From Gemmatimonadota bacterium (GTDB taxonomy: Bacteria; Gemmatimonadota; Gemmatimonadetes; Longimicrobiales; Gaopeijiaceae): a DNA stretch of 55,953 bases. This document shows, piece by piece, positions 14,365 to 38,300 of the stretch; the first letter of the stretch is position 1, and the number at the start of each line of letters is the position of its first letter. The notes beneath the pieces are model-generated. The model was not told where the DNA came from. It searched no databases and saw nothing but the letters and a program-made list of their open reading frames with translations. Where the stretch lies: positions 1-55,953 of the forward strand of contig VYAQ01000226.1 in NCBI GenBank assembly GCA_009844885.1. Direction: 5' to 3'. A program made the translations under genes and the position numbers.

Positions 14365-14395
14365 CATATGACCAGTCACCGAGACTGGTCATATG
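14365..14395. promoter_or_regulatory. 13-bp-arm palindromic operator overlapping the antitoxin start
   Basis: A perfect inverted repeat: arm CATATGACCAGTC (14365-14377), loop ACCGA, arm GACTGGTCATATG (14383-14395). The last three bases are the ATG of the antitoxin gene. A TTGACG at 14358-14363 just outside the left arm would be the -35 of a promoter whose -10 (GAGACT at 14381-14386, weak) lies inside the palindrome, with transcription starting at or next to the ATG. This is the layout expected for autorepression by a Phd/YefM-type antitoxin dimer. Binding is inferred; the palindrome is observed. Confidence 0.75.
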
Positions 14396-16777: not shown

Positions 16778-19446
16778 TCCTCGATTCCGCACTTCTCCTT
16801 GCCGCCGCGGTCGGCGCGCAGTCCCCCCAGCAGGTCGGGTTGGGCGCCGACTCGACGCTGACGCACAGCGACGGCGTGGTGCCGCCCACCGTGACCGCGG
16901 TGCGGGCCGAGCCGCCCCCCGTCCTCGACGGTGTCCTGGACGAGGCAGTGTGGCAGAACGCCATCCCCGTCACGGGATTCCGGCGGGATCGGCCCGGCGA
17001 CGGGCTCCCAGCGGCCGAGAAGACCGAGGTGCGGGTCGCCTACACCGACGACGCGCTATACGTCGGGGCGCGCATGTACGACCGCGACCCGTCCCGGATA
17101 TCCCTGCTCCGGGGTCGGCGCGACTCGTTCATGCAGCCCAACGACCTTTTCCTGATCCAGCTCGACTCATACCACGATCACCGCACGACCTTCGTCTTCG
17201 GGGTGACCCCGGCGGGAGGACGCAACGACCTGGTCGCGCCCAACGACGGCTTCCAGGGGATGGACGCGGGCTGGGATCCGGTGTGGGACGCCGCGACCCG
17301 AGTGGATTCGCTGGGGTGGGTGGCCGAGATGCGCATTCCCTTCTCGCAGCTCCGCTTCCGGGAAGGTGACCGCCAGGTCTGGGGGGTCAACTTCCGCCGC
17401 GACATCCTGCATGCGGGCGAGGCGGTGGATTGGGCGTGGAGACCGTCCACGGAGAGCGGGCTGGCTTCGTCGTTCGGACACCTGCTGGGGCTGGAGGGAG
17501 TGCGCAGACCCTCGCGCCTGGAAGTCCTTCCGTACGCGGTCACACGCGCGAGCTTCGACCAGCGCGCGGATCCGGCAAGCCCCTTCGACGATGGCTCCGT
17601 CTACGGGGGCGCCGTGGGACTGGACCTGAAATACGGGCTCACCGGCGGGCTTACACTGGACGCCACCGTGAACCCCGACTTCGGACAGGTAGAGGCGGAC
17701 CCGGCGGTGGTGAACCTGACCGCCTTCGAGACTTTCTTCGAGGAGCGCCGGCCGTTCTTCGTCGAGGGCGCGGGTCTCTTCGGGTTTGGTGGGCTCGAGG
17801 GATTGCGCTTCTTCTATTCGCGTCGGATCGGTCAGCGTCCGGCGATCCTGGTCGGCGGCGCACGAGGGTCCTTCGTCGATCAGCCGACGCAGTCGACCAT
17901 TCTCGGCGCGGCCAAGATTTCGGGCCGGACCGATTCCGGGTGGGTCGTCGCCTTCATGAACGCGACCACGCAACGCGAACACGCCCGCATCACCGAGGGT
18001 GCCGGCGCGCCGGTCACCGAGGTCCCGGTGGACCCGCTGTCGAACATCACGGCGCTGCGTCTCCGTCGAGACATGAGGGACGGCGACAGCTACGTCGGCA
18101 TGATCGCGACCGGAGTGGACCGCGATTTGAACGACACGAGATTCGTCTTTCACCGCGACCACGCCTATACCGGCGGCGTGGATTTCCTCCATCGGTTCGC
18201 AAACCGAACCTATGCACTGCAGGGCTGGGTGGGCGGCTCACACATAAGCGGCAGCCCAATCGCGATGCAACGGGCGCAACGATCATCCGTGCGATACTAC
18301 CAGCGGCCCGACCAGGACTATGTGAGCTTCGACCCCGACCGTACCTCGCTGGGCGGGTATGCGGGTGAGTTGGCGCTGCGCAAGATCGCGGGCGAGTGGC
18401 TCTACGGCTTCGAGGCGAGCATGATCTCACCCGGCTTCGAGATGAACGACGCCGGCTTCCAGACGATCGCGGACATCTACTCGCTCACCCTCGGCGGAAC
18501 GCGGCGCTGGGTGGAGCCCGGGCGGTACTTCAGATCCGCCAGCCTGACGCTTGGCGGGTCCGAACGCCGGAACTTCGGCAACCTGGTCTTTCAGCGCGAG
18601 ATCTCACTGCGTGGCAACGGCCAGACGGTGGGCTTCCATTCCTTTCGCGGCTCGCTGCGCTACGGAATGGAGACCCTCGACCACCGCACAACGCGAGGCG
18701 GTCCCGCCATGGTCAGTCCCGCGAACTGGGGCGGCAACCTCTGGTTCAACACCGACGGGCGAAAACGGGTCTCGGGCGGCCTCTCGGTCAACTTCTCCGG
18801 CGACGCCGAGGGCTCGTATTCGATCGGGGGCGGCCCGACCCTTTTCGGCCGCGGCGAAGGCCTGTTCAGCTGGAGCATACGGCCCACCCTGCGGACGAGC
18901 AGGAGCGCGGCCTTCTACGTCACGCAGGGCGAAGACCCCGCCGCGCACACGACCTTCGGCCGCAGGTACATCTTTGCCGAACTGGAGCAGCACTCGCTCG
19001 ACGTGACGATCCGCATGGACCTCGCGCTCACCCCGCGCATGACGCTGCAGGTCTACGGCCAGCCTTTCATCGCGATTGGCGACTACGAGAACTTCACGGC
19101 ACTCCGCGAACCCAGGACCTACGACTTCCTGCGCTATGGCCAGGGCGCTGCCACGATCGGGCGCTCACTGGCCACCGACCGCTACATCGCCGACGCCGAC
19201 GGCACGGGGCCCGCCGAACCGATCCGCTTCACCAACCCCGACTTCCGCACGCGTTCCTTCCGGAGCAACGTGGTGCTGCGCTGGGAATACCTGCCGGGCT
19301 CGACCCTGTTCCTGGTATGGAGCCAGGATCGGCGCGACTGGTTTCGCGACCCGGACTTCGACGGCGTGGGCAGCCTGCGGGGCCTCTTCTCGGACCCGAT
19401 GCGCAACGTCTTCCTGATCAAGGCGAGCTACTGGCTGGACTTCTGA
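16774..19446 (+). CDS. DUF5916 outer-membrane protein with CBM9-like N-terminus
   Basis: An 890-residue exported protein. After a signal peptide (MILDSALLLAAAVGAQS) it has a carbohydrate-binding-family-9-like domain (residues about 38-215: PPVLDGVLDEAVWQNAIPV, VRVAYTDDALYVGARMYD, WVAEMRIPFSQLRF). A long DUF5916 region of alternating beta strands follows, including VNPDFGQVEADPAVVNLTAF, FFEERRPFFVEGAG and FFYSRRIG, and it ends in an aromatic ILIKASYWLDF-like strand as outer-membrane barrels do. The role is unknown; the CBM9-like part suggests ligand binding at the surface. I chose the ATG that overlaps the phosphoesterase TGA as ATGA; another ATG six codons earlier exists. Confidence 0.85.
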   Translation: MILDSALLLAAAVGAQSPQQVGLGADSTLTHSDGVVPPTVTAVRAEPPPVLDGVLDEAVWQNAIPVTGFRRDRPGDGLPAAEKTEVRVAYTDDALYVGARMYDRDPSRISLLRGRRDSFMQPNDLFLIQLDSYHDHRTTFVFGVTPAGGRNDLVAPNDGFQGMDAGWDPVWDAATRVDSLGWVAEMRIPFSQLRFREGDRQVWGVNFRRDILHAGEAVDWAWRPSTESGLASSFGHLLGLEGVRRPSRLEVLPYAVTRASFDQRADPASPFDDGSVYGGAVGLDLKYGLTGGLTLDATVNPDFGQVEADPAVVNLTAFETFFEERRPFFVEGAGLFGFGGLEGLRFFYSRRIGQRPAILVGGARGSFVDQPTQSTILGAAKISGRTDSGWVVAFMNATTQREHARITEGAGAPVTEVPVDPLSNITALRLRRDMRDGDSYVGMIATGVDRDLNDTRFVFHRDHAYTGGVDFLHRFANRTYALQGWVGGSHISGSPIAMQRAQRSSVRYYQRPDQDYVSFDPDRTSLGGYAGELALRKIAGEWLYGFEASMISPGFEMNDAGFQTIADIYSLTLGGTRRWVEPGRYFRSASLTLGGSERRNFGNLVFQREISLRGNGQTVGFHSFRGSLRYGMETLDHRTTRGGPAMVSPANWGGNLWFNTDGRKRVSGGLSVNFSGDAEGSYSIGGGPTLFGRGEGLFSWSIRPTLRTSRSAAFYVTQGEDPAAHTTFGRRYIFAELEQHSLDVTIRMDLALTPRMTLQVYGQPFIAIGDYENFTALREPRTYDFLRYGQGAATIGRSLATDRYIADADGTGPAEPIRFTNPDFRTRSFRSNVVLRWEYLPGSTLFLVWSQDRRDWFRDPDFDGVGSLRGLFSDPMRNVFLIKASYWLDF

Positions 19447-19795: not shown

Positions 19796-22783
19796 ATGAG
19801 ATTGCGCTACGGCATCATGGCGGGCCTGTTCATGCTTCTGGGCACGGGAGAAGCCCTCGCCCAGACGCGTGTCCTCACGGGCTCCGTCACCGACGCCACC
19901 ACCGGACAGCCCATTTCGGGCGCGGCCATCGCCGTCACGGGGACGACCCTCGGCACCTTCACACAAGACGACGGCAACTTCGCCGTCTCCGTGGGAGCCG
20001 GCGAGGTCCTTCTCGAGATCAGCATGCTGGGATACCAGCCGGCATCGGTCACCGTACCCGAGGGCACGAACAACATCAGCATCGACCTGAGGGTCGACGT
20101 CCTCAACCTCGACGAGATCGTGGTGACGGGACAGGCCACCGGAATCTCCAGGAGGAACCTCGCAAACGCGGTCTCGACGGTGAGTGCGAGGGACCTCGAG
20201 AGGGTGCCCTCCGCCTCGGTTGAGCAGGCGCTCCGCGGCAAGGTCGCCGGAGCGAACATCCAGTCCAACTCGGGGGCCCCGGGAGGGGGCATGCAGCTCC
20301 AGCTCAGGGGCGTATCCACGATTCTCGGCAATCACACGCCGCTGTACGTGGTGGACGGTGTGATCGTGAGCGACGAGACGATTCCATCCGGGGTGCACAC
20401 GGTCACCGTCTCCTCCTCGAACCCCGTGCGCGGAGGCTCGCAGGACAACTCCGCGAACCGGATCGCCGACCTGAACCCCTACGACATCGAGAGCATCGAG
20501 GTCCTCAAGGGCGCGTCGGCGGCGGCCATCTACGGGTCGAAGGCTAACAACGGCGTGGTGATCATCCGCACCAAGAGGGGCCGGGTCGGGGCGCCGCAGT
20601 TCAACGTCACGCAGCGCTTCGGCTTCTCACAGCTGTCCAACAAGCTGGGTCTCCGCGAGTTCACCTCGATGGAAGAAGCGGTCGAGTTCTTCGGTCCGCA
20701 GGCGAGAGACCACTGGCAGGCCGGGAGGTTCTTCGATCACGAGGAGCTCCTCGCGGGGAACGAGCCCCTCTCCCGCGAGACTTCCGCAAGCGTGAGCGGT
20801 GGCACCCAGGACACGCGCTACTACGCCTCCGGTCTGGTCAAGCACGATGGCGGCATCATCGACAACACCTTCTACAACAAGGAGTCGCTGAAGCTCAACA
20901 TCGACCAGACACTGGGCGAACGGGTCTCGTTCAGCCTCAACACCAACGCGATTCACACGCTGGCGGGCCGCGGCATCACGAACAACGACAATCGGAGCAT
21001 CAGCTATTACATGACGCTCCCCTCCACGCCCAGCTTCGTGGATCTGCGCGCCGTCTGCGCCGACGGAAGCCGCCAGGCCGACATCGACAACTGTCCGAGC
21101 GGCACCGGCACCTACCCCAGGAATCCCTTCGCGGCGTCGAACATCCTGGAAACGGCTTCGCTCGTCCGCAACGACGAGGAGGTGTGGCGGTTCGTGGGAT
21201 CCGGGAACCTGACCTTCGACGCCATCACGTCGGCCACCCACAACCTGCGGCTGAGCGCCACCGGCGGCATCGACTTCTACAACCAGAAGAACGAGCTGTT
21301 CTCGCCGCCCGAGTCGCAGTTCGAGCCCAACGACGGGCTCCCGGGCACGTCGGTCCTCGGATCGGCCTACAGCCAGTACATGAACGCCAACATGAACGCG
21401 GTCTACACGTTCAACTCAGACGCCTTCCAGTCGACCATGTCCTTCGGCACGCAGTACGAGATTCGCGACCTGGACGCCAGCAGCACCATCGCCAAGAACC
21501 TCATCGGCGGCCTGCAGAACATCGACCGGGGGACGGCAACCGAGGTCCGGCAGAACCGTGAACGGGTCGTCGACTTCGGCATCTTCGCACAGGAAGAGAT
21601 GCTGATGCTGGATGAGCGCCTCCTCCTCACGGCGGGGATGCGCGTCGACCGCAGTTCCAACAACTCCGACACCGACAAGTTCCACTTCTACCCGAAGGTC
21701 GCGGCCTCCTACCGGATCCCGATCGGGAACGACCTGCTCGAAGAAGTGAAGTTCCGCGGCGCATGGGGCCAGTCGGGCAACCAGCCGGTCTACGGCCAGA
21801 AGTTCACCGAGTACGAGGGCCGGAACATCGGCGGCCTGCCGGCGCTGCGGGTGCAGGGCGCCACGGCGGCGACCGACCTGCGTCCCGAGCGGCAGACCGA
21901 GATCGAGGGCGGCATCGACGCCACCCTGTTCGAAGACCGGTCGACGCTCGAATTCACGTACTTCAGGAAGAACGTGACGGACGTGATCCTGGAGCGGTCC
22001 CTCGCACCGTCAACGGGTTTCCAGGAGGCGATCTTCAACGGCGGAGAGATCCAGATCTGGGGAATCGAGACCGCGCTTACCGTGGTGCCGTTCTTCAGCA
22101 GCAACCTGCAGTGGACCTCGCGCGCGACGTTCAGCATGGACCGCAGCGAGGTGATCGCGCTACCGGTGCCGCGCTTCACCGTCCAGGGCTTCGGGTACTT
22201 CTACGGAACCACGGCGGTCGAGGTGGGCAGATCGCTGACGCTGCTATGGGGCAACGGCCCCGACCCCGAGACCGGTGAGGTCGGTGTGGGCCCCCTCGCA
22301 GAATCCAACGCGGACTTCCGCATGGGCTTCTCCAACGACGTCAGCATCGGGCGGTTCAACGTCTATTCGACGCTGGACTGGCAGAAGGGCGGCACGGCCA
22401 ACAACCTCACCCAGTTCCTCTTCGACCTCACCCGGAACACCGAGGACTGCAACAACCTGGACAACGGCGAGAGCGTGTGCGTGAAGCGCAACCGGGAGTT
22501 CCCCCAGAACACGGGGACGTACTTCCAGGACGCCTCCTTCGTGAAGCTGCGGGAACTGACCGTGAGCTACGACCTGCCGCAGGACATGGTGGCGGGGATC
22601 TGGAGCGGCGCCCGGCACATTCGGCTGAACCTGAGCGGCCGCAACCTGCTGACCCTCACCGACTACGCCGGCCTCGATCCCGAGGTGAGCAACTTCGGAA
22701 GCGAAGCGGTCGGACGTGGCCAGGACGTGGCGCCCTACCCACCGAGCCGGACCTTCTGGCTCTCGGTGGACGTGGGCTTCTGA
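19796..22783 (+). CDS. SusC/RagA-family TonB-dependent receptor
   Basis: A 995-residue outer-membrane importer that would pair with the SusD lipoprotein encoded next to it and use TonB energy. Order of parts: Sec signal (MRLRYGIMAGLFMLLGTGEA), carboxypeptidase-D-like beta domain (residues about 26-105, LTGSVTDATTGQPISGAAIA), LDEIVVTGQ linker, then plug domain with SVEQALRGKVAGANI, LYVVDGVIVSD and IESIEVLKGASAAAIYGSKA. The barrel ends in FWLSVDVGF with a terminal Phe. AAAGGAGGAG precedes the ATG. It heads an apparent operon of five genes that continues with two S9-like proteins, so a peptide ligand is the most reasonable guess. It differs clearly from the two SusC proteins at 39-47 kb. Confidence 0.92.
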   Translation: MRLRYGIMAGLFMLLGTGEALAQTRVLTGSVTDATTGQPISGAAIAVTGTTLGTFTQDDGNFAVSVGAGEVLLEISMLGYQPASVTVPEGTNNISIDLRVDVLNLDEIVVTGQATGISRRNLANAVSTVSARDLERVPSASVEQALRGKVAGANIQSNSGAPGGGMQLQLRGVSTILGNHTPLYVVDGVIVSDETIPSGVHTVTVSSSNPVRGGSQDNSANRIADLNPYDIESIEVLKGASAAAIYGSKANNGVVIIRTKRGRVGAPQFNVTQRFGFSQLSNKLGLREFTSMEEAVEFFGPQARDHWQAGRFFDHEELLAGNEPLSRETSASVSGGTQDTRYYASGLVKHDGGIIDNTFYNKESLKLNIDQTLGERVSFSLNTNAIHTLAGRGITNNDNRSISYYMTLPSTPSFVDLRAVCADGSRQADIDNCPSGTGTYPRNPFAASNILETASLVRNDEEVWRFVGSGNLTFDAITSATHNLRLSATGGIDFYNQKNELFSPPESQFEPNDGLPGTSVLGSAYSQYMNANMNAVYTFNSDAFQSTMSFGTQYEIRDLDASSTIAKNLIGGLQNIDRGTATEVRQNRERVVDFGIFAQEEMLMLDERLLLTAGMRVDRSSNNSDTDKFHFYPKVAASYRIPIGNDLLEEVKFRGAWGQSGNQPVYGQKFTEYEGRNIGGLPALRVQGATAATDLRPERQTEIEGGIDATLFEDRSTLEFTYFRKNVTDVILERSLAPSTGFQEAIFNGGEIQIWGIETALTVVPFFSSNLQWTSRATFSMDRSEVIALPVPRFTVQGFGYFYGTTAVEVGRSLTLLWGNGPDPETGEVGVGPLAESNADFRMGFSNDVSIGRFNVYSTLDWQKGGTANNLTQFLFDLTRNTEDCNNLDNGESVCVKRNREFPQNTGTYFQDASFVKLRELTVSYDLPQDMVAGIWSGARHIRLNLSGRNLLTLTDYAGLDPEVSNFGSEAVGRGQDVAPYPPSRTFWLSVDVGF

Positions 22784-22808
22784 CAACGTGAACGGGAGAA
22801 TGAGACCG

Positions 22809-24182
22809 ATGATCAGACAAATGGGCCGTCTGCTGACGGCGGGTCTCTTCGCAACCGTGTTCACGGCTTGCGAACTGACCGTACCGGACTACAACAACCC
22901 CAGTGTGGAGGACCTGCAGACCAATCCGAACAGCGCCGCAATCGCCGCCGCTGCGCAGGGCCTTCTCTTCGACACCCGCCTCACCGCGGCCGACATGGTG
23001 CATTGGGTCGGCGCCTTCGGCCGCGAGGTATACCCCATGGCGCCCACCGGGTCCTCGCTGCCCGGCAGCGTGCGCGACCCCTGGACCCAGACCCTCTTCG
23101 TAGGCACGCAGGTGTGGGCCGAGGCGTACAGGAACATGCGCAACGCCAACCTGCTTCTGGACGCGCTGGCTGCCGCCGAACTGCCGGAGCCCGACAAGGC
23201 TGCGGTTCGCGGCTTCACCAAGACCATCCAGGCATACGACCTGCTGCACATCGCGGTGACGCGCCGGCATCTGGGCGCACCAGTCGCGGTGGGCTCCGAT
23301 CCGAACGAGCCCCCGGCGCCGATCGTGGGCGAAAGCGAGGTCTACGGCCACGTGATCAGCCTGCTCGACGAGGCGCGCGGCGACCTGCAAGCCGCTTCCT
23401 CCTTCCCCTTCGGCGTCACAGCGGGACTTTCCAACTTCTCGTCGCCGGGCGACTTCATCCGCCTCAACCGTGCGATCAAGGCGCGCGCGGAGGTGCACCG
23501 CAACAACTGGTCAGGCGCGCTCCAGGCGGTGGCGGAGTCCTTCGCCGGGAACAACATGCCGCTCGACTACGGGGCGCAACACAGCTGGTCGGTCAACTCG
23601 GGCGACCTGGTCAACCCGGCCAACCGTCCCGACCTCCTGTGGGCCAACACGCGTTTCCGCAACGAGGCCCAGGCGCGCGCGGACGGGTCGCCGGATCTGC
23701 GCTTCCAGAACAAGTTCAAGGTGGTGGGAGCGTATCAGCTGCTGGAGGTGACCTCGGATCTGCAGTACACGCTGTACGAGAACCCGAGCGCGCCGTTCGT
23801 CTGGGTCAAGAACGAGGAGTTGATCCTCATCCGCGCCGAGGCGAACCTTGCGATGGGCAACCGGGCGGCGGCGATCGAGGACATCAACTTCGTCCGCATG
23901 AACTCGGGCGGCCTCGAGCCGCTGCCGGACCCCTATCCGGGATCTGACGACGACCTGCTCGACGAGCTGCTGTACAACAAGCGGTTCTCGCTGGTCTTCG
24001 AGTGGGGGCACACGTGGATCGACATGAACCGTTACGACAAGCTGCTGGAAATCCCCGTGGTGGGTGCGCCCAGCGCCGACCAGCGGCTTCACAGCGCGAT
24101 GCCCTACCCGCTGAGCGAGTGCCTCCCGCGCGAGCCGGAAGTCCCGCCGGGATGCATGACCCAGCAGGGCGTCATCCCGTAG
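22809..24182 (+). CDS. SusD/RagB-family substrate-binding lipoprotein
   Basis: A lipoprotein of about 457 residues that would cap the SusC barrel at the cell surface and deliver ligand. The signal MIRQMGRLLTAGLFATVFTA is followed by the lipobox cysteine in TACELTVPDYNNPSVEDL, and PDYNNP is typical of this group. TPR-like helices follow (AYRNMRNANLLLDALAAAEL, GFTKTIQAYDLLHIAVTR), then the SusD C-terminal landmarks LILIRAEANLAMGNRAAAIE and LLDELLYNKRFSLVFEWGHTWIDM in the same order as family members. An ATG three codons upstream is the alternative start. The gene begins 25 bases after the SusC stop; its 3' end overlaps the next small lipoprotein gene. Confidence 0.88.
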   Translation: MIRQMGRLLTAGLFATVFTACELTVPDYNNPSVEDLQTNPNSAAIAAAAQGLLFDTRLTAADMVHWVGAFGREVYPMAPTGSSLPGSVRDPWTQTLFVGTQVWAEAYRNMRNANLLLDALAAAELPEPDKAAVRGFTKTIQAYDLLHIAVTRRHLGAPVAVGSDPNEPPAPIVGESEVYGHVISLLDEARGDLQAASSFPFGVTAGLSNFSSPGDFIRLNRAIKARAEVHRNNWSGALQAVAESFAGNNMPLDYGAQHSWSVNSGDLVNPANRPDLLWANTRFRNEAQARADGSPDLRFQNKFKVVGAYQLLEVTSDLQYTLYENPSAPFVWVKNEELILIRAEANLAMGNRAAAIEDINFVRMNSGGLEPLPDPYPGSDDDLLDELLYNKRFSLVFEWGHTWIDMNRYDKLLEIPVVGAPSADQRLHSAMPYPLSECLPREPEVPPGCMTQQGVIP

Positions 24183-24583
24183 GAGCGGCCGGCCTCCGGC
24201 TTGTCGCCGCTTTTCTCGCCGCGGCGGTCGCCGGATGCGCTTCGAGTTCGGAGCGCTCCGGCGAACCGCCCGGCGTGGGCGACGAGGCGGCCCGGCAGGG
24301 TGCGCCCGAGAGCAAGCTGCACGTAAACAACCGGAATTGGCTCGACATGCGCATCTACGCGCTCCGGGGCTCCGAGCGCATCACCCTGCTCTCGGTCACG
24401 AGCATGAGAACCGACTCGGTGCCGCTGCCGGCGAGGCTGCTCACCGCCGGCGGGTTCCGGCTTCTGGCCGATCCCGTGGGCGCCGACCCCTACCGGAGCA
24501 ACACGATCTACCTCCGCCCCGGCCAGACGGTCTGGTGGCGACTCGAGAACACTCTGAACCAGTCCAGCCTCTGGGTCTACTGA
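24152..24583 (+). CDS. Small lipoprotein, probable SusCD accessory protein
   Basis: A 143-residue lipoprotein of unknown function. The signal GLRLVAAFLAAAVAGC ends with the lipobox cysteine near residue 29. The mature part is a short beta-rich domain: LHVNNRNWLDMRIYALRGSE, RITLLSVTS, GFRLLADPVGADPYRSNTIY and LRPGQTVWWRLEN. The ATG lies 31 bases inside the susD-like gene in another frame; no later in-frame start would keep the signal peptide. The frame stops 22 bases before the first S9-like gene. Position between SusD and S9-like genes suggests a third component of the uptake complex, but this is inference only. Confidence 0.65.
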   Translation: MHDPAGRHPVGAAGLRLVAAFLAAAVAGCASSSERSGEPPGVGDEAARQGAPESKLHVNNRNWLDMRIYALRGSERITLLSVTSMRTDSVPLPARLLTAGGFRLLADPVGADPYRSNTIYLRPGQTVWWRLENTLNQSSLWVY

Positions 24584-24605: not shown

Positions 24606-26552
24606 ATGAACAGCCATCGGACACTGGCGGCGGCCCTCTGCCTGACAGCCGCCGCGGCCACAGGAGCCCATGCCCAGAAGGCCGACATCCTCACCATCGA
24701 CCAGCTGCTCTCCATCGAGTCCGTCGTCTCCGGCTCGCCCACCTGGTCGCCCAACGGCTCGGGGATCCTTTTCCAGTCCTCGCTGTCCGGTGGGCTGATG
24801 ACGATCTCTCCGGACGGCGGCTTCCCCACCCGCCTGCCGATCGAGATGGGCACCTCGGGCCACTTCCTGGCCTCCCAGATGCCCGGCTGGTCGCCGTCCG
24901 GCAAGTGGATCTCGTACGTGTCGGACAAGGGCGGCTCGCCCGAGATCTGGATCTGGTCGGCCGAGGACGGCTCGGAGGCACAGCTGACCAACCTGGGCGC
25001 GCGCATCAACTCGATGACCTGGTCGCCCGACGAGCGCTCGATCGCGTTCGCCGGCGACCGCTACGGCAACTACGACATCTGGACCGTCGAGGTGGCCACG
25101 AAGCGCGTCCAGCGCATCACGAACAACAAGCTCTACGAGGTCTTCCCGACCTGGACGCCGGACTCGGAGCGGATCCTGTACGTGCGCCTCGACGACACCT
25201 GGGAGGACCACGACGTGATCGAGGTCGCCCCGGACGGATCGGGCGCGCGCACCGTGCTCCAGGACACGGACTTCTTCGACTACGGCGCCGGAACGACCTT
25301 CGCCTACCCGCGCGTATCGCCCGACGGCACCCAAGTGCTGTTCCGCTCGCACCGCAGTGGCTGGATCAACTACTGGCTCGCTCCGATCGGGGGTGGAGAG
25401 CCCCGCCCGATCGCCGCCGCCGAGGCCGACCAGAGCAGCGCCACGTGGTCGCCGGACGGCAGCATGATCGCGTACACCGAGAACCACAACGGCCATCACG
25501 ACCTGCGCGTGGTTGCCGCGGACGGAGGGAAGCCACGCGTGCTGGCGTCGCCGGGCGGGATGGGCGGCGCTTCCGCAGGCGGCGTCGCGTCGAATCCCTC
25601 GTGGTCGCCCGACGGACGGTCGATCTCGTACCTGATGGCCGACCTTGTTACTCCTCAGGATCTGTATGTGGTTTCCTTGGAGGACGGCGAGAGTCGCCAA
25701 CTCACCTCGTCCATGCCGGCCGGGGGCTTCGGGGCGCGGTTGATCCTGCCGGAGAAGGTTCACTACCCCAGCACGGACGGGTATTCGATCCCCGCCTACC
25801 TGTATCGTCCGGTGGGAGTCCCGGCGGGTCAGCGCGCGCCCGGCATTTTGTGGATCCACGGCGGCCCCACGTCGCAATTCCACGACACCTTCCAGCAGCA
25901 CGTGCAGTTCTTCGCGCAGCGGGGGTACGCGGTGCTGCTGCCGAACATCCGCGGCAGTTCGGGATACGGGAAGGCCTTCGCCGACGGCAACAACGACTGC
26001 TGGGGCCACTGCGACCTGGAAGACGTCGTCGCGGGGGTGGACTTCCTGAAGACGCAGCCCGAGGTCGACCCGGACCGGATCGGTCTGACAGGCACCAGCT
26101 ACGGCGGCGTGATGAGCATGTACGCCGCGTCGTTCGCGCCCGACGTGTTCCGCGCGATCATTCCCGGCTCGGGCTACGGCGACTGGATCCACTTCTACCA
26201 CGGCGAGAACGAGCTGCGGCACATCAAGCTCCTGGAGCACGAGCTGGGGCCCTTCGAGACGAGCCAGGACGTGTGGCGCAACAGCTCGGCGATCTTCGAG
26301 ATCGACAAGGTGTCAACGCCGATCTTCATGGTGCACGGCGAGGGGCGGTATCCGGGGTCGGACCAGTCGGAGATCTTCGCGCAGGCGCTGGAGAACTTCT
26401 ACAAGCCGTTCGAGTACACGACCTATCCGAACGAGAACTACTACGTGTACGGCAAGGCCAACCGCCGTCAGATGTTGTTCGACATGCTGGACTTCTTCCG
26501 TCGTTACCTGAACGACGAAATGGTGGACGCGGGCGAAAGGATGGACCGATGA
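24606..26552 (+). CDS. Exported S9 (prolyl-oligopeptidase-like) protein, atypical triad
   Basis: A 648-residue protein with a Sec signal (MNSHRTLAAALCLTAAAATG), a beta-propeller of PD40/WD40-like units (many WSPDG or WSPDE repeats, residues about 45-370) and a C-terminal alpha/beta hydrolase (residues about 390-640: ILWIHGGPTSQF, LLPNIRGSSGYG, GLTGTSYGGVMS). This is the layout of acylaminoacyl-peptidase/DPP-type S9 enzymes that trim peptides. The nucleophile Ser498 is present. At the expected Asp site the HGxxD motif reads HGEGR (Arg581), and at the His site YPGEGH reads YPNENY (Tyr612). It may be inactive, use other residues, or be a peptide-binding protein. AAGGAG precedes the ATG; the stop overlaps the next gene as ATGA. 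Confidence 0.86.
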   Translation: MNSHRTLAAALCLTAAAATGAHAQKADILTIDQLLSIESVVSGSPTWSPNGSGILFQSSLSGGLMTISPDGGFPTRLPIEMGTSGHFLASQMPGWSPSGKWISYVSDKGGSPEIWIWSAEDGSEAQLTNLGARINSMTWSPDERSIAFAGDRYGNYDIWTVEVATKRVQRITNNKLYEVFPTWTPDSERILYVRLDDTWEDHDVIEVAPDGSGARTVLQDTDFFDYGAGTTFAYPRVSPDGTQVLFRSHRSGWINYWLAPIGGGEPRPIAAAEADQSSATWSPDGSMIAYTENHNGHHDLRVVAADGGKPRVLASPGGMGGASAGGVASNPSWSPDGRSISYLMADLVTPQDLYVVSLEDGESRQLTSSMPAGGFGARLILPEKVHYPSTDGYSIPAYLYRPVGVPAGQRAPGILWIHGGPTSQFHDTFQQHVQFFAQRGYAVLLPNIRGSSGYGKAFADGNNDCWGHCDLEDVVAGVDFLKTQPEVDPDRIGLTGTSYGGVMSMYAASFAPDVFRAIIPGSGYGDWIHFYHGENELRHIKLLEHELGPFETSQDVWRNSSAIFEIDKVSTPIFMVHGEGRYPGSDQSEIFAQALENFYKPFEYTTYPNENYYVYGKANRRQMLFDMLDFFRRYLNDEMVDAGERMDR

Positions 26553-28618
26553 GACACATGGACACCCTGTTTTCCGGCCTTGCGGCCTGCCGCCTGAGCG
26601 CGGTGAAGCGGCCTCTGCCTCGCCCGGCGCTGCCCCTGGCGGCGCTTGTGCTCGCGGCCAGCCTGGCCTGCCAGTACGAAGCCCCGGCTGCAGGGGATGC
26701 GGCCGGTGCCGCGGTATCGGCCGCCTCGGCCTTTGCCGCCGACGCGATCTCCGCGCCCGAGCTGGTCGACCTGACCGCGGCGGTGGGCGGCACCCATCCG
26801 CCCAAGTGGTCGCCGGACGGCTCGCGGATCACGTTCGTCTCCGGCGGCGGCCTGGGCTCGGTCAGCACGGAGGACGGCGCCTTCGAGATCCTGACCGAGG
26901 ACCTGTCGCTGAGCGGCGTGGGGTCGCTGGGGGCGCCGCAGCCCACCTGGTCGCCCGACGGGCGCTGGATCGCCTACACGTCGGACAAGAGTGGAGCGCC
27001 GGACATCTGGCTGTGGTCGGCCGTGGAGGGCGACGGCATGCGCGTCGGCGTCGACGTGCAGCTGACCGGGTTGTCGGCGCGGGCCAACGGACTGGCCTGG
27101 TCGCCCGACGGCACCCGGATCGCGTTTTCCGGCGACCGTTTCGGCAACATGGACATCTGGACGGTCTCGGTGCCGGACGGCAAGGTAAGCCGCCTGACCG
27201 ACGACCCGCTTTATGAGGGCTATCCCAGCTGGACGCCCGATGGAAGCCGGCTGCTTTACGTGCGCATGGACGACCGCTGGGTGGACCACGATGTGATCGA
27301 GGTGGACCCCGACGGCAAGAACCCGCGCACGGTCGTGCAGGACCGGGGCTTTTTCGACTACCGCGCCGGGCGGGCGTTCGCCTCGGCGCAGGTGTCGCCC
27401 GACGGGGAGACCGTGCTGTTTCGTTCGCAGAGCAGCGGCTGGCTGAACTTCTGGGTCGTGCCGCGCGACGGCAGCGGCGAGCCCCGCCAGATCGCGGCCT
27501 CCGACTACGACCAGAGTGACGCGCGCTGGTCGCCCGACGGCAGCTGGATCAGCTACACCGAGAACCGCGACGGGGTGCATTCGCTGCGGCTGGTCTCGGC
27601 GGACGGCACGAAGAGCAAGGTGCTGGTCGAGCCCGAAGTCGGCGCCGCGCTGCGGCCCGAGTGGTCGCCCGACGGCAGCCGGATCAGCTACACGATGGAG
27701 ACGCCCACGCGGCCGGCCGAGCTGTTCGTGATGGACGTCGAGTCGGGCGAGAGCCGCCAGCTTCACAGCACGGTCGCGGCGGGGTCGGCCGAGCAGCTGC
27801 ACATGCCCGAGAAGGTGGCCTATCCCAGCAGCGACGGCCTCACGATACCGGCGTACCTGCACCGGCCGCCGGACGCGGAGCCGGGTGAGCGGTTCCCCGG
27901 CGTGATGTGGATCCACGGCGGGCCCACGTCACAATTCGACGACCAGTTTCGGAGACACCAGCAGGTGCACTTCTTCGCCCAGCGTGGCTACGTCGTCCTC
28001 ATGCCCAACATCCGGGGAAGCTCGGGGTACGGCCTGGAATTCGAGGACCTCAACAACGGCTGCTGGGGCCACTGCGACCTGGAAGACGTGCTCGCGGGCG
28101 TGGATTACCTCAAGACCCTGCCCGACGTGGACCCCGACCGGATCGCGGTGACCGGGACCAGCTACGGCGGCATCATGACGATGGACGCGGTGGCGTTCGC
28201 GCCCGGCGTTTTCCAGGCCGCGATCGCCCTGTCGGGCTACGGCGACATGACCGACTTCCACACCAGGGTGCACGAGCTGCAGCACATCAAGCTGCTCGAG
28301 TACGAGCTGGGCCCCTACCCCGAAAACCGGGACGTCTACCTGAACAGCTCGGCCATCCTGAAGGCGCACGAGGTGACCACGCCCACCTTCGTGATCCAGG
28401 GCGAGGGGGTCGCGGCCGAATGGCGGCTGCGGGAGGACCAGCCGCAGGCCTCGCTCGACTTCGCGCGCAAGCTCGACCAGCACTACAAGATCGTGCGCTA
28501 CAAGGCATACCCGGGCGAAGGCTACTACGTGTACGGGCGGGACAACACGATCCAGAAGCTCCACGACATGCTGGACTTCTTCGAGGAGTTCCTGGTGACG
28601 GAGATCGGCGGGATGTAA
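26549..28618 (+). CDS. S9-like propeller hydrolase lipoprotein, atypical triad
   Basis: A 689-residue paralogue of the preceding protein with long shared blocks (IWIHGGPTSQF-like, LMPNIRGSSGYG, NNGCWGHCDLEDVLAGVDYL). Instead of a cleavable signal it has LAALVLAASLACQYEAPA, a lipobox, so it is probably membrane-anchored. The propeller (repeated WSPDG) is followed by the alpha/beta hydrolase with Ser538 in VTGTSYGGIMTM. The Asp site reads QGEGV (Val621) and the His site YPGEGY (Tyr659), so it shares the triad changes of its neighbour. The ATG overlaps the previous TGA. The conserved cysteine pair CWGHC in both proteins may form a disulfide or bind a metal. Confidence 0.86.
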   Translation: MRHMDTLFSGLAACRLSAVKRPLPRPALPLAALVLAASLACQYEAPAAGDAAGAAVSAASAFAADAISAPELVDLTAAVGGTHPPKWSPDGSRITFVSGGGLGSVSTEDGAFEILTEDLSLSGVGSLGAPQPTWSPDGRWIAYTSDKSGAPDIWLWSAVEGDGMRVGVDVQLTGLSARANGLAWSPDGTRIAFSGDRFGNMDIWTVSVPDGKVSRLTDDPLYEGYPSWTPDGSRLLYVRMDDRWVDHDVIEVDPDGKNPRTVVQDRGFFDYRAGRAFASAQVSPDGETVLFRSQSSGWLNFWVVPRDGSGEPRQIAASDYDQSDARWSPDGSWISYTENRDGVHSLRLVSADGTKSKVLVEPEVGAALRPEWSPDGSRISYTMETPTRPAELFVMDVESGESRQLHSTVAAGSAEQLHMPEKVAYPSSDGLTIPAYLHRPPDAEPGERFPGVMWIHGGPTSQFDDQFRRHQQVHFFAQRGYVVLMPNIRGSSGYGLEFEDLNNGCWGHCDLEDVLAGVDYLKTLPDVDPDRIAVTGTSYGGIMTMDAVAFAPGVFQAAIALSGYGDMTDFHTRVHELQHIKLLEYELGPYPENRDVYLNSSAILKAHEVTTPTFVIQGEGVAAEWRLREDQPQASLDFARKLDQHYKIVRYKAYPGEGYYVYGRDNTIQKLHDMLDFFEEFLVTEIGGM

Positions 28619-30874: not shown

Positions 30875-32077
30875 TCATCGCGGGGGCATCAGCCTCCGCC
30901 CTACCACATAGGGCACACCCAGTGCATCGTCACGGGTTCCCCAGACGTGAGTCGCTGTTGCGTCCGTGGCCTGCATGGCTTCAGGCAGCAGAACGCGGCG
31001 GGGTTCGCCAGACGAGTCGCCGCGCGGAATCGTGTAGTACACCCTCAGCGTGTCGACCCTCTCGAAGGTCTTGAGCCACACATCGTCCGAGGCGGAAAGG
31101 AAGAAGCTCGCCGCAGCCGGCAGGTACTCGGGTTTGTAGAGCGCCTCCTCAAATGCCTCCAGATAGCTGAGCTGTTCGGCGCGTAACATCCCGGGGCGTG
31201 GGAACGCCCCTATCCAGCCGTCTACTATTTCCTGAACCCACTCCGGGGTGAGATTGTGCGGCTGGAACTGCAGCCGTCGTTCCCAAAGCGTATCGCCCTT
31301 GGCATTCAGCTCGAGGAGACCGAGAGAACCTGGCGGTCCGCCGGATCGACGCATGACCAGGATCTTCCCATGCGCGAACGCCGTACGGTCATCGTCACCG
31401 AAGTATTGTGCCGTGAAGGTATTACTGTCATCCATGATGACGGCAAGCAGTTGATTGCGTGTGTCCTGCCAGAAGATCTCCTCGGGTGGCAGCCACTGCC
31501 CCGCATCGGAGCGCCGGACGAGCAGGAGAGGCTGGCGCACCATCGGGGGGCCTCCCAGCAACCCCGCCATCCTGGACGCGGAGTACAGTGGCCTGACCAC
31601 GTATCCTCCGTCGGTCGTGGGTGTTTCGATGCCCACGCGCGTATCCTGATAGCGTAGCGCTGTCGTCGTCCCGATCTCCGTGCCCTCCAGCACCCCGTCC
31701 GCGGTGTAGTGTGTGAACCGCGTCCCCCAGCCCTCCTGCACCGAGAACCCACCATCCTCGTTGAAGTAGATTCGCGCCGGCCGGTTGAACTCGCCGGGCC
31801 CCTCACCCTTCCTGCCCACCACGAACTGCAGGGATCCATCCGGATTCCACACGCTGACCTGGGTCTCCATCGGATCGACGACGAGGATTCTGTTCCTGTA
31901 GGGATCGGCCCGGAGAAAGGCCCAGTTGAACAGCACGCCCTGTTCGGCCGTGCCGGTGAACCTGTGTTCGAGTTCGGTGACCCATTCCGCGTGCTCCCGG
32001 GTGTCGGAGTCGTCTCCTCCGCAGGCGGCGCACGCGAGCAGCAGAAAGCCCGCAGTCGTCCGCAGGTCTCTTACCAT
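30875..32077 (-). CDS. Six-bladed beta-propeller lipoprotein
   Basis: A 400-residue lipoprotein with signal VRDLRTTAGFLLLACAACGG (lipobox cysteine in LLACAAC). The mature part resembles the 6-bladed beta-propeller (NHL/TolB-like) family of exported proteins: NRILVVDPMETQVSVWNPDG, LQFVVGRKGEGPGEFNRPA, FTHYTADGVLEGTEIGTTTA and later SASDDVWLKTFERVDTLRVY. The GRKGEGPGEF signature is typical. Ligand unknown. Its ATG overlaps the end of addA (ATGGTAA), so it is the last gene of the long SusC-SusD-SusC-DHS-addB-addA run. That is a curious partner for cytoplasmic DNA-repair genes. Confidence 0.78.
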   Translation of the reverse strand: MVRDLRTTAGFLLLACAACGGDDSDTREHAEWVTELEHRFTGTAEQGVLFNWAFLRADPYRNRILVVDPMETQVSVWNPDGSLQFVVGRKGEGPGEFNRPARIYFNEDGGFSVQEGWGTRFTHYTADGVLEGTEIGTTTALRYQDTRVGIETPTTDGGYVVRPLYSASRMAGLLGGPPMVRQPLLLVRRSDAGQWLPPEEIFWQDTRNQLLAVIMDDSNTFTAQYFGDDDRTAFAHGKILVMRRSGGPPGSLGLLELNAKGDTLWERRLQFQPHNLTPEWVQEIVDGWIGAFPRPGMLRAEQLSYLEAFEEALYKPEYLPAAASFFLSASDDVWLKTFERVDTLRVYYTIPRGDSSGEPRRVLLPEAMQATDATATHVWGTRDDALGVPYVVGRRLMPPR

Positions 32078-35000
32078 GACTCCGTCCGCCCCTGCGCTGT
32101 GAAGACGAGCACCCGTTCGCCGACCTTTTCCTCCGTCAGTTGCTCCCAGCACTCGGCGTAGAGATCGACCTGGGCACGATAGCGGCCCGACCGCTCCTCG
32201 AAGTCGGGATCATCGCCCATGTCTGTCTTGTAGTCGGCGACGACCCAACGGTTCCCGTCCTTGAAGACGAGGTCGATCACGCCCTCGAGCACATCGGGCC
32301 GGTTCGGTTCCCCGCGACTCAACGCGAAGGGGACTTCGCTGTGGCGCTCGCTGCTGGCCATCGCCCGCGCCCAGATGTCGGAGCCGCGCACCGCCTCGAC
32401 GAGCGCCATCAGCGCCTCCAGTTCGGTCGGCTCGCCCGCCGCGTCAACCGGGCGCTCGTACTCGATCAACAGGCCGCGCGCGTACTGCGCCAGGGCCTCG
32501 CCTCGGGTGCCCTCGCCAGCTGCCGCCAGCACATCATGGACCACGCTGCCCCACTCGTAGCCGCCGCTGGTCGGGTCGAGGGAGGAGGGGTCGAAGCGGT
32601 CGGTTCGCACGGCGGGGTCGTGCGCGGAGGGATCACGCACGGCAGGATCACGGGCGGGCGCTCCCTTGGCCCTCGCCGTCACGGTCTCCAACCGGTAGCC
32701 GGGTTCACGGGTGCGCGCTGCCGCCGACGCCACTTCCGCCAGCGACTCCGTCAGGTCGATCTCCGGGTCCAGCCGGTCCGGCTCGGGGGGCAGCCCTCGG
32801 GGCAACTGGATGCCCATCCCCAGGCCGGCCACCCACTCCTCCAACACCTTCCAGGGCGACGAATCCCGCCCGCGCAGCCCCGAGCCCCGCGCGATCCACA
32901 ACTCGTCCCGGGCACGGGTGGCGGCCACGTACAGAAGGCGCGTCTTCTCCGCTTCTTCGAACGTGGCCTCCACTTTCCGGTCCTCCTCCCAGGTTGCCGG
33001 CTGGGTGATGATCTCGGTCGCGTATCCCCGCTTGACCACGATCGGGATTGTCCCGCGCGCGGCCCCCGTCTCGTCCCGGGCGACGCGCATCCGCGGCTTG
33101 CGGTCGAATTCACCAAAGGGCGCGGCGAGGAAGACCACATTCGCTTCCAGGCCCTTGGCCCGATGGAGGTTCATCACCCGGACGCAGTCGCCCCGCCCCG
33201 GCACCAGCGGCGCCTCCGCGTCCTCCCAGTCCAGCGCGGTCGCCAGGGCGTCGACGGCACCCGCGATCGACGTGTCGCCCTCCAGCGCCCGGGCACGCAC
33301 CGCATCGAGGAGGTAGGAGAGCGCCCCGGCGCGCAGTCCTCCCAGATTGCCCGCAGCGGCCAGGGGGAAAAGCCCGGTCTCGCCGATCACGCGTTCGGCG
33401 GTAACGTCCGCCGGCTCGCGCAACGCCCGCTTCCACCACCCGTGCAGCACGTTGATCGCGTCCGCCACCTCGTCGTCACCCACGGACGGACGGTTGATCC
33501 TGAAGCGGCCGCCGCGGTCCCGGTACGCCACCAGCCGGTCCAGCGTGATCCCGAACAGCGGGCCCGTCAGCACGCCGAGGACCCGAGGCTGATTCGCCGG
33601 ATCCTCCAGACAGCGGAAGAGGAGAAGGAGAGCAGCCAGTTCGTCCTCGAAGCCCACCCCGGCACCCGACACGTCGACGGGGAGGTTTCGGTCCTCAAGG
33701 GCCCGGGCATAGACCGAGAGGTACTTGCGGTTCCGGGTGAGGATCAGGAAGTCGTCTGCTTTGCGTTCGCCTGCCGCCACGCGGCGCGCGATCTCGGTGG
33801 CAATCCGGCCGGCGTCGTCCCGCGCGACCTCGTCCTGCCTGCTGCCCGAGACCGAGTACGTTGCCAGGACACCCATCCCCTCGCGCTGCGTCAGCAGGGG
33901 GGCAAAGGCTGCCTGGCGGTCGCTGTCGTCCTTCCCGAACCGGTCCTCCCGGTCGAAGACCCCCTTCACCAGCGCCTCGATGCCGCCGAGCGAGCGGAAG
34001 TTGGCTTCGAGGACCAGCACCTCGCCGAAATCCTCGAAGCGCTCCTTGACGAGCTGGTAGAGCGCGATGTCGGCGCGCCGGAAGCGGTAGATGCTCTGCT
34101 TGGGATCTCCGACCACGAAGAGCGCACCGGGGCGAGGCACCACGGTGCGCCAGTCGTCGCCGGTCTCCGGGTCGCTGGCGAGCAGGAGCAGAATCTCCGC
34201 CTGCAGGGGGTCGGTGTCCTGGAATTCGTCGACAAGAAGACGTGGATAGCGTCGGCCCAGGTCGCGGCGAGCCTCGGGATTGTTGCGGAGCAGAGCCGCC
34301 GAGAGGACCAGCAGGTCCTGGAAGTTGATCTGGCCGCGGTCCTTGCGCTGGCCCGCAAAGGCCGCGGCCGCGTGCCGGGCGACGTCGATGGCGACCGGAT
34401 AGCGGTAGGCCCACCATTGGCGCAGCACCCTGTCCGCCGGCCCTCCGGCCTCCGCAAACTTGCAGAAATCCTCGAAAAGCCGCTTGGCCTGTGCCTTGCC
34501 CGCCCCGTCGTCCGCCCACCGTTTCTGAACCAGTCCACTCTTCTTCAGGTGCACCCGGGCCAGCGCGTCGAAGAAGGCCCTCGGATCGCTCCAGTCCAGA
34601 GTGCGGCGCCAGTACAGGAGCGTGCGGATCCGCTTGCCGAAGTTGTCCCATCCGTCCGGCGGCGTGCGGCCCCGCATCAGTCCCTGGGCGCGGTCGAGGA
34701 GTTGTTCGAATTCGGCCCGCACCGCGCGGACGGCCCGGGCGTCGGGTGACTCCACGCGGTCGAAGCCGTAGTCGACATCCGGGTTTTCGACCAGCTCCCG
34801 GAATGTGTCCTGCAAGTGGTCGGCCGCGATACCGAGCCGGTCGAGCTCCTCCAGGCGGGGATCCCCATCCGTGGCCAGGCGCTCCAGGTACTCGACCCAG
34901 GCGCTGCGCTGCATGCGCTCCGCCTCCGACTCCAGCACTTCGCGAAAACCGGGGTCGAGTCCTGCCTCAAGGGGCCGTTCGCGGAGCAGCCTGGCACAGA

Positions 35001-35334
35001 AGGCGTGGATGGTGCCCAGGAAGGCGTGATCGATGTCGCGGACCGCGGCCTCGAGCGCATCCAGATCCGGGTGCCCGGATGCGAGCTTCGCCGCCTCCTG
35101 TTCCAGCACCACCTGGAACTTCTGGCGCAGCTCGGCCGCCGCCTTGCGCGTGAAGGTGACTGCGGCGATCTGGTCGACCGTGCACGCCCGGCTCCGCACC
35201 AGCGCGACCATGCGGTCCACCAGCGACGTGGTCTTCCCCGAGCCAGCCCCCGCTTCGACGAGCAGGTTGCGTTCCAGGTCCCTGCCAATCCGATCCCGGG
35301 CGGCCTGGTCCGGAGGGAGGGTCAACCCGTTCAC
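32071..35334 (-). CDS. addA: AddA-type helicase-nuclease subunit
   Basis: UvrD-family helicase fused to a RecB-type nuclease, one half of the AddAB enzyme that resects double-strand breaks for homologous recombination. The protein of about 1087 residues has motif Ia/Walker A LLVEAGAGSGKTTSLV near residue 24, AAVTFTRKAAAELR, Walker B LLVDEFQDTDPLQ, GDPKQSIYRFRRADI, LEANFRS, VMNLHRAKGLEANVV and LLYVAATRARDELWI. The nuclease block GVIDLVFKDGNRWVVADYKTD is near the C-terminus. The GTG giving VNGLTLPPDQ overlaps the addB stop as GTGA and has AGGAG upstream; the longer open frame is not used. Acts in the cytoplasm with AddB. Confidence 0.9.
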   Translation of the reverse strand: MNGLTLPPDQAARDRIGRDLERNLLVEAGAGSGKTTSLVDRMVALVRSRACTVDQIAAVTFTRKAAAELRQKFQVVLEQEAAKLASGHPDLDALEAAVRDIDHAFLGTIHAFCARLLRERPLEAGLDPGFREVLESEAERMQRSAWVEYLERLATDGDPRLEELDRLGIAADHLQDTFRELVENPDVDYGFDRVESPDARAVRAVRAEFEQLLDRAQGLMRGRTPPDGWDNFGKRIRTLLYWRRTLDWSDPRAFFDALARVHLKKSGLVQKRWADDGAGKAQAKRLFEDFCKFAEAGGPADRVLRQWWAYRYPVAIDVARHAAAAFAGQRKDRGQINFQDLLVLSAALLRNNPEARRDLGRRYPRLLVDEFQDTDPLQAEILLLLASDPETGDDWRTVVPRPGALFVVGDPKQSIYRFRRADIALYQLVKERFEDFGEVLVLEANFRSLGGIEALVKGVFDREDRFGKDDSDRQAAFAPLLTQREGMGVLATYSVSGSRQDEVARDDAGRIATEIARRVAAGERKADDFLILTRNRKYLSVYARALEDRNLPVDVSGAGVGFEDELAALLLLFRCLEDPANQPRVLGVLTGPLFGITLDRLVAYRDRGGRFRINRPSVGDDEVADAINVLHGWWKRALREPADVTAERVIGETGLFPLAAAGNLGGLRAGALSYLLDAVRARALEGDTSIAGAVDALATALDWEDAEAPLVPGRGDCVRVMNLHRAKGLEANVVFLAAPFGEFDRKPRMRVARDETGAARGTIPIVVKRGYATEIITQPATWEEDRKVEATFEEAEKTRLLYVAATRARDELWIARGSGLRGRDSSPWKVLEEWVAGLGMGIQLPRGLPPEPDRLDPEIDLTESLAEVASAAARTREPGYRLETVTARAKGAPARDPAVRDPSAHDPAVRTDRFDPSSLDPTSGGYEWGSVVHDVLAAAGEGTRGEALAQYARGLLIEYERPVDAAGEPTELEALMALVEAVRGSDIWARAMASSERHSEVPFALSRGEPNRPDVLEGVIDLVFKDGNRWVVADYKTDMGDDPDFEERSGRYRAQVDLYAECWEQLTEEKVGERVLVFTAQGRTESW

Positions 35335-38300
35335 TCGTCCTCCCAGTTGCGCACTCGCCGGAGGGACGCCAGCTCCGGCAGATCCTTCAGATTGCGGGCC
35401 GTCCAGTCGGCGAAGCGGCACGACACCTGCCCCCAGTTGCCGCTCCGCACCCCGCACACCTCGCCGTAGTCACAGAAGCGGCAGTCGTTCCTGGCGTTGT
35501 CGGTCGCCGGGAAGTCCCCCGCGGCGACGCCTTCGAGCAGGGTGGCGACAAGGAGTCCGCCGGTCTCCAGCTCTTCCGTCTCGAACGCCCACACGCGGTT
35601 CTCGCCGCGGCGGGTCGGGAAGTGGTACTCCATCCCGCTGACAGTCCTGTCCAGGACGCTGGCGGCCGCCAGAGTGTAGATCACGTGCTGCACCCGGCGG
35701 CCACCGTCGTAGATCCCCGACTTTCCGCCGTACCCGTGGTCGGTGCCGGTCTTGTAGTCGACCACCCGCAGCTCGGCCCCGTGGTCGTCGAGCCTGTCGA
35801 TGTAGCCGCGCACCTGCACGGGTTGCGCGTCCGCTTCGATCGCCACGGGATCGTCCGTCATCCCGAAGGGCATCTCCAGGCCGATCCATGGCGGTGGTTC
35901 GCTGCGAATCATCTCGACGAAGGACCGGGCGTCGTCGCGCAGCGCCGCCATCTCCCACTCGTGGACGGCATGACTGGGCGCGGGCACCTGCCACAGCTTC
36001 CGCGCCCCCTCGGCGTCGACAAGCGACAGGGCCAACGCGAGAAAACCCTCTTCTTCGGGGTCCAGTCCCCGTTCCCGCGCCAACTCCAGTGTGTGCTGGT
36101 AGACCGCGTGCAGGAGACTGCCCCGCTCGAGCGGGTTGAGCCAGCGGTGGGCATCGAACTCCGGGTCGTCGGGCGGATAGGCGCGCAGGACATAGCTGAA
36201 CAGGAAGCGGCGCGGACAGGCGCCCAGGCTTCCCAGTCCGCTCGCGGAGAACGTGTGACCCGACAGTTCCTGGTACGAGAGCGGAGGCGAATGCGTGCCC
36301 AGAAAGCCCGTATGCACCGACGCGAGGTCGCTGCGCAAACCCTCCGCTGCCGCCATCCCCAGGCCCAGTCGGGGGTAGGCACGCCCAACCGCCTCGAGTC
36401 CGTTGAGCAGCCTGCCATCGGCAGAGGCGAGGGCGCGCAGCCAGACATCTCCCGCGTCCACATCCGTGGTTAGTTCGGCTCGCGGAAGGCGTGACTCGCT
36501 GGCGCCCAGGTGAGTCTCGAGGTGCTCGAAGTTGAGGGTCCGGTCACCCTCGCGCAGCCGCAGGGCCTGGAGCAGTTCCGGCGCGGGTGCGAGTTCGCGC
36601 GCTTCGGCCGGATCCCAGCGCGAGAAGCTGAGGGTCAGCGTCCCGCGGAGACGCGCGATCAGTTGGGCGAAGTTGAAACGGGCCTCTGCAATCCGGTCGC
36701 GTGCGAGGGGGAGTTCGCCGCGTCCCAGATGCCACCGTTCCCTGTCCAGCAGCAACGGATCCTCCATGGTGGACCCGGGAAAGCGCCCAGAGTCCATTCC
36801 CACGACGAAGGTGTACGGCCGACCCGTGGCTCCGCCGTGGGCGAAGTCGGTCAGGTACAGGTGGCCCGCGGCCGAACTCCAGGGGGCCATTCCTTCGGCC
36901 CTTGGCGCCGGAATGCGGATCTGGAGGAAGGACTTGACGATGGCAGCGGCCGACGGGTAGTCGGTCGGTCGGGTCAGCGTCGCCTCGATCCGGTCGAGCT
37001 GGCGCAGCAGCCGGTCCCGGGCGGTGTCGTCGGTGTCGGTGCCCGGGGCGACGCGCGCGAGGATGCTCTTGACGCCGGTCGCGACCCGGGCGGGGGACAC
37101 GGTGCCGTCGACCGGAGGAGTCGCTTCCAGTAGCGGCCGAATGAGCGCTTGCAGGGCGAGCAGGTTCTCGCGCCTCCGCTGCTTGAGCCGCTCGAAGCTC
37201 TCCTCGTTCTGCAAGGGGCGCCGCTTCAAGCCGTCCAAACCCTCGATGGCCCGCTCAACGCGGGCGATGTGGCGCTCCCTGCCCCACCCGATGCGCAGCC
37301 GCCTCAGTTCGCGGGCGAGACCGGGACCCCGGAGCCGGTCGCCCGGCGGGGGCGGCTGCACGTCCCCGGCCTCGATCAGGGCGCGAAGGCGCGATTCATG
37401 GAAGTCGTTCTCGATCCACTGGAAATAGGTCGTCACAACGCGGCCGGGGCGCGTGCGCTCGACGGGGAGGCCCACCGCAAAGGTGACCGGTATGTCCAGT
37501 GACTCCGCCAGCGCATGCAGCGCCGACCCGTACAGGGAGGGATCCGCGGCGATCACCTCGACCTCGTCCCAGCGCGCGCCCAGGTCGATTGCGCGGCGCA
37601 GAACCCCCCGCACTTCATCCTGGACGGACCCCGCCGCGAAGAGTTCGATACGCGGCCGCGGCCCTTCGCAGCGTTCGACGGCGTGCAGGTAGCTCCCGGC
37701 CGCGGCGGGTGGCGCCACGTCCCAGAGGATGCCCTTCGGTACCCGCATTCCCTCGACCGGGTCCGTCCTGAGGAGGGTCGCGCCCCGGTTCTGCAAGGCG
37801 CGCGCGAAGCGTCCCGCGAGGCCACGGTCGGGGAGGCCCGGCAGCAGGAAGGTCGGATCGCTCAGGGGCGGCGCGGCGGTATCGTCTTCCAGAATCCGCG
37901 TGGCGGTCCGCAGCACCATCGCATTGTCTGCGAGGTTGCCGGCTTCGAGGAGTTCCTCGTACCGGCGGAGCACGGCCGTGATGAGCGCCTGCCGATCCGT
38001 GGCCCCCGCGGGGCGCTCGATCGAGGAGGAATCGATGCCTCCCAGGCGCAGGGCCGCCACCGAGTGACGGACCGCGTCGCGGAAGCCGACCTTCTCGCGG
38101 AGCGTCGGAAAACGGAAGTCGCGCCCCGCTGCAAGCGCCTCGTCGATGGCCCTCTCCACCAGCGCGTGCTCGTCGAAGGAGTCGATCACCTTGCGACCCG
38201 TGGCCGACAGTGTACGCGCAACGATTTTTGATGCGAGGGGTCGTAACGTGTTGACCTCAAAGCCCACCCACGACCGGCCGCGCAACGCGACCTGCCGCAG

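Follow-up and report, generated by a model that had tools for sequence, protein, structure and literature searches.

Two adjacent genes of a Gemmatimonadota bacterium raise the question of what becomes of an S9 peptidase fold when its catalytic Asp and His are gone and its Ser is kept. The genes, which we call P1 (24606..26552, 648 residues) and P2 (26549..28618, 689 residues), lie head to tail on the + strand of contig VYAQ01000226.1 (assembly GCA_009844885.1). The window analyzed was a stretch of 55,953 nucleotides, to which all coordinates refer; every feature located below is on the + strand unless stated otherwise. We found that P1 and P2 are members of an S9C-type subfamily, so far uncharacterised, that lacks the classical triad. 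We give an even chance to the reading that the cleft is kept as a specific, most likely peptide, predicted binding site without S9 turnover.

Both proteins are members of the S9 homology family by domain content and by fold. In each, a WD40-like propeller was detected along with a Peptidase_S9 domain (PF00326), far over the Pfam cut-off, with Peptidase_S9 scores of 132.6 bits in P1 and 126.9 bits in P2 (cut-off 22.6). The AlphaFold2 model of P1 had a mean predicted local distance difference test (pLDDT) score of 91 and a predicted template modelling (pTM) score of 0.89; that of P2 reached pLDDT 85 and pTM 0.84, with about 63 N-terminal residues of low confidence. In a Foldseek search the P1 model matched S9 structures over almost its full length (8wt1, E 1e-44; 7c72, TM 0.81). 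The best matches in sequence and fold were S9C peptidases (acylaminoacyl peptidase and S9 carboxypeptidase; 8wt1, 5yzm, 4hxe, 1ve6), which have in common with P1 and P2 the propeller plus alpha/beta-hydrolase fold, the G-x-S-Y-G-G elbow and the HGGP oxyanion motif. The best NCBIfam matches of P1 were Dpp5 (150.8 bits) and the Atxe2 lasso-peptide isopeptidase (154.5 bits), yet these scores fall far under the curated cut-offs, which are 900 bits for Dpp5 and 400 bits for Atxe2. P1 has an apparent Sec signal peptide, judged by eye (..GAHA, then Q). The start codon of P2 shares ATGA with the stop codon of P1, so the two are probably translated together.

We then examined the positions of the triad. 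The nucleophile is present in the GTSYGG elbow of both proteins, as Ser498 of P1 (26097..26099) and Ser538 of P2 (28160..28162). The Asp position of the HGxxD motif is occupied by Arg581 in P1 (26346..26348) and by Val621 in P2 (28409..28411), where the loop is 7 residues longer. The catalytic His position of the YPxExH motif is occupied by Tyr612 in P1 (26439..26441) and by Tyr659 in P2 (28523..28525). In the phmmer alignment to PDB 8wt1, for instance, HSERDY..YPDANH of the enzyme is set against HGEGRY..YPNENY. A profile alignment to five PDB chains and a MAFFT alignment with nine canonical S9 proteins were concordant with it on both losses. The preliminary description of this DNA had reported the loss of Asp and His from both proteins, and its residues and numbering were confirmed; its trust in the residue alignment was borne out by the agreement of the three alignments. 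It had also given a Ser-to-His spacing of 114 residues, which is correct for P1 but not for P2, where the spacing is 121 because the Asp loop is 7 residues longer. The same alignments bear on the thought that P1 and P2 are ordinary enzymes whose Asp-His pair lies nearby and was misaligned. The longer Asp loop of P2 and of some relatives does contain acidic residues, but no acidic residue in that loop is conserved, no His after strand 8 is conserved and the three alignments agree, which makes misalignment the least probable of the explanations considered here.

To place the two proteins among their relatives, we gathered sequences from the source genome, 395 Gemmatimonadota genomes and public species genomes. 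In total, 83 sequences were aligned, of which 72 form the subfamily proper, with identity down to about 45%. The elbow Ser was found in 72/72. No member, P1 and P2 included, has the Ser-Asp-His triad in its canonical places: Asp and His are both lost in all 72, the HGxxD stretch varies in letters and in length, and the position after strand 8, where alpha/beta hydrolases carry their His, holds Tyr in 67 sequences and Phe in 5. Among the best 30 S9-domain loci of the source genome, P1 and P2 are the only two without either residue. The canonical pattern is retained by the 28 other paralogues, although one of them (L122) has a gap at the His columns and only its Asp could be seen. Since the loss is common to every member and affects only P1 and P2 among these loci, it is unlikely to be due to chance; as judged from the alignments, it is real and general across the subfamily rather than a quirk of two genes. 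The source genome has an expansion of S9 domains, with 49 Peptidase_S9 matches, of which 39 have an E of 1e-23 or lower.

We constructed a phylogenetic tree, leaving out the trait columns and including the nine canonical S9 proteins. The subfamily and two divergent relatives formed one branch with support of 100/98, separate from all nine canonical proteins. P1 and P2 were placed in separate old sub-lineages, which rules out a recent tandem duplication as the source of their common changes. The suggestion that two neighbors with the same changes mark a distinct subfamily was therefore right as to the subfamily, which spans several Gemmatimonadota families and a few Chloroflexi, but the two proteins are not independent cases: by the tree, both inherited one ancestor's change. 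The two divergent relatives (L045:1483-3444 and L105:5087-7060) have lost both His539, introduced below, and the YYV motif, and have kept the elbow Ser (GVSYGA and GTSYGG).

Members were observed in 47/395 sampled Gemmatimonadota genomes. In Chloroflexota, 1/400 sampled genomes contained a member, namely the genome on which the search was centred, and the scan of species genomes returned a few Chloroflexi matches; from this rarity, the Chloroflexi members look like transfers. No member was detected in 247 Bacteroidota genomes at E 1e-60, a search for which that phylum offered no positive control. Inspected by eye, the Chloroflexi members whose start is clear show no signal peptide. We found no description of the subfamily in the literature searched. 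In a survey from 2014, prokaryotic prolyl oligopeptidases of every subtype covered were reported to have a highly conserved triad (PMC4522959).

To further characterize the site, we analyzed the residues that do not vary. Across the 72 sequences, 59/648 columns were invariant. Beyond structural Gly, Pro and Trp, these include Ser498, His539, Tyr613, Lys600, Asp427 and Glu546, as well as Trp199, Phe224, Asp225, Tyr226 and Gln276 of the propeller. His539 of P1 (26220..26222) lies in an E-L-[RQ]-H motif on a helix (537-547) between strands 6 and 7; its equivalent in P2 is His579 (28283..28285). This His, which the preliminary description had overlooked, was found in 72/72 subfamily members, in none of the nine canonical S9 proteins and in no other examined S9 protein of the source genome. 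Tyr613 (26442..26444) adjoins the lost His, at a position held by Gly in most canonical S9 proteins. The propeller motif FFDY (223-226; 25272..25283), in which F224, D225 and Y226 are invariant, meets a gap in the canonical rows at columns 223-225. The lack of the triad Asp and His and the presence of His539, Tyr613 and FFDY distinguish the subfamily from the S9C peptidases that it otherwise resembles. A further feature is a CxxxC pair in P1 (C465-W-G-H-C469, 25998-26012), which occurs in most Gemmatimonadota members (Cys469 in 62/72). The Chloroflexi members, apparently without signal peptides, do not have the pair; it is possibly a disulfide of exported forms.

The codons of several fixed residues switch between synonymous forms (S498 AGC/AGT, H539 CAC/CAT, Y613 TAC/TAT). 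Because the codons vary while the residues stay, this points to purifying selection on the residues themselves. It is hard to reconcile with a decaying pseudoenzyme whose cleft has lost its function, an explanation that the absence of the canonical Asp and His would otherwise invite. The active-site residues are among the few that remain invariant over 72 sequences, and the subfamily persists in the 47 genomes of the phylum mentioned above; we consider decay highly improbable.

Does the kept Ser still catalyze a reaction by other means? One proposal was a Ser-Tyr mechanism using the Tyr at the old His position. Tyr612 as the base is disfavoured because Phe replaces it in 5/72 members. The invariant Tyr613 beside it keeps a weaker form of the idea alive, in which Ser498 works with Tyr613, or with assistance from Lys600, as an acyl transferase, lyase or esterase. 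Both residues were found in 72/72 sequences, but Lys600 is also present in 2/9 canonical S9 proteins, Tyr612 at the His position itself gives way to Phe in some members, and no specific transferase feature was found. We regard such chemistry as improbable. Acids are known to relocate to the end of strand 6; a search for a replacement there found no invariant one, and the candidate, D526, is disfavoured because it is Asn in 6/72.

A stronger alternative is an enzyme with a rewired site, in which Ser498 remains the nucleophile and His539 is the new base, possibly with E536, E546 or E610 as the acid; the result would be a Ser-His dyad or triad with a new topology. The distribution of His539 described above is what such an enzyme would show, and the two relatives without His539 are also without YYV. 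The location of the residue is also suggestive. In the AlphaFold2 model of P1, helix 537-547 comes after strand 6, and the profile alignment pairs E-L-R-H539 with the S-D-I-G-[LY] stretch of S9C enzymes, so that His539 would sit on a helix carrying residues of the S1 pocket. It lies 11 positions after a conserved Trp in 16 sequences and 12 after it in 56. In the acylaminoacyl peptidase of A. pernix, W474+11 is Phe485, in letters identical to the deposited chain, and Phe485 has been found to contact active-site ligands in docking (PMC4394528). The hhalign register for His539 differs by two residues, however; the assignment to the helix appears clear, and the direction in which the residue faces rests on a register uncertain by 2. 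A His in the wall of the S1 pocket may also simply bind substrate, and E536 is Val in 4/72. A further objection comes from a survey of alpha/beta hydrolases in which the catalytic His is always on the loop between strand 8 and helix F and only the acid migrates (PMC11878206). We consider a rewired enzyme possible and somewhat unlikely. The full form of the claim is doubtful: that the catalytic His of an S9-fold serine hydrolase left the strand 8 loop for the strand 6-7 helix along the S1 pocket, a change fixed in the Gemmatimonadota subfamily and shared by a few Chloroflexi.

We favor the reading that the site binds and does not turn over its ligand by the S9 mechanism. As read from the alignments, the classical triad is dismantled: Ser is kept, the Asp loop is remodelled and His has become Tyr or Phe. 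The conservation of residues assigned to the cleft between propeller and hydrolase domain was observed directly and suggests strong selection on it, if, as we infer, all of them face the cleft. The cleft would then bind a specific ligand, most likely a peptide, held in place by Ser498, the oxyanion-hole region, His539, Tyr613 and propeller residues D225, Y226, W199 and Q276. This would resemble the gibberellin receptor GID1, an alpha/beta hydrolase derived from hormone-sensitive lipases in which the catalytic His is lost and the retained Ser binds the ligand (PMC3531792). The subfamily has the same pattern of lost His and kept Ser, and its ligand may be held much as GID1 holds gibberellin; GID1 differs, however, in belonging to another family, keeping its Asp and lacking a propeller, and a receptor function of the subfamily is only predicted. 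The preliminary description had raised the idea of peptide receptors, which is possible. DPP6 and DPP10, S9B proteins not close in sequence, also have an S9 fold with a broken triad and have turned non-enzymatic; DPP10 was shown to keep its Asp and His (PMC4350108). They are a mirror image of the subfamily: theirs is a replaced nucleophile Ser with Asp and His kept, and no member of the subfamily follows that pattern.

Several points weigh against this reading. The Ser is never lost, unlike in DPP6 and DPP10, and even the two divergent relatives that lack His539 and YYV keep it. An invariant Ser together with an invariant new His is also expected of an enzyme with a rewired site. The proposed GID1-like mode, in which a ligand would be bound without turnover and a partner protein would take part, is a prediction.

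The genes around P1 and P2 offer a possible context for peptide binding. Directly upstream, in the same orientation, we identified a SusC/RagA TonB-linked outer membrane transporter (19796..22783; 517 bits, cut-off 368), a SusD/RagB-like lipoprotein of uncertain start (22740..24182; 24.6 bits, cut-off 23.1) and a small putative lipoprotein, also of uncertain start (24179..24583), which had no Pfam or NCBIfam match and is syntenic in the genus and also conserved in L106. The order SusC, SusD, small lipoprotein, P1, P2 was found at 8/8 genus loci with flanks (L046-L053). SusCD systems are able to import oligopeptides, as in RagAB, which fits the peptidase fold of P1 and P2. In the genus, the P1/P2 pair probably serves the SusC/SusD uptake system directly upstream.

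The linkage is not universal, and its absence elsewhere also counts against tying the binding function to import. Of about 20 more distant loci, 7 had SusC and SusD genes close to the member, which on a rough count, with about 16 SusC genes per genome, exceeds chance. The linkage is absent in the Palauibacter and Chloroflexi members: a Palauibacter-type member adjoins a DUF885 gene, and the Chloroflexi members adjoin M20, M42 or histidine kinase genes. Because these members have other neighbors, the importer link is lineage-specific, and the Chloroflexi members without a signal peptide suggest that the core function is independent of the importer.

Other features of the window lie further away. 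A DUF5916 protein (16756-19446) upstream of SusC is syntenic in several genus loci. On the - strand, M19 dipeptidase, amidohydrolase and beta-lactamase-family genes stand in a row (8319-14379), a hydrolase-rich region near the S9 pair. A UvrD-type helicase with a PD-(D/E)XK domain lies beside a second PD-(D/E)XK protein (32071-38474) and has the look of an AddAB-type recombination pair.

Judged from sequence, the most likely function of P1 and P2 is the binding of a ligand or peptide without classical hydrolysis, with catalysis by a relocated His as the main rival and the more exciting alternative. If His539 is the base, the subfamily would be an exception to the fixed-His rule of alpha/beta hydrolases, with a new catalytic topology; if it is not, the subfamily would offer a clean example, from bacteria, of a peptidase fold converted to a binding protein. 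Homology-based annotation would label the members S9 family peptidases, and because a well-conserved subfamily as a whole lacks two of the three residues of catalysis, that label is probably wrong for all of it.

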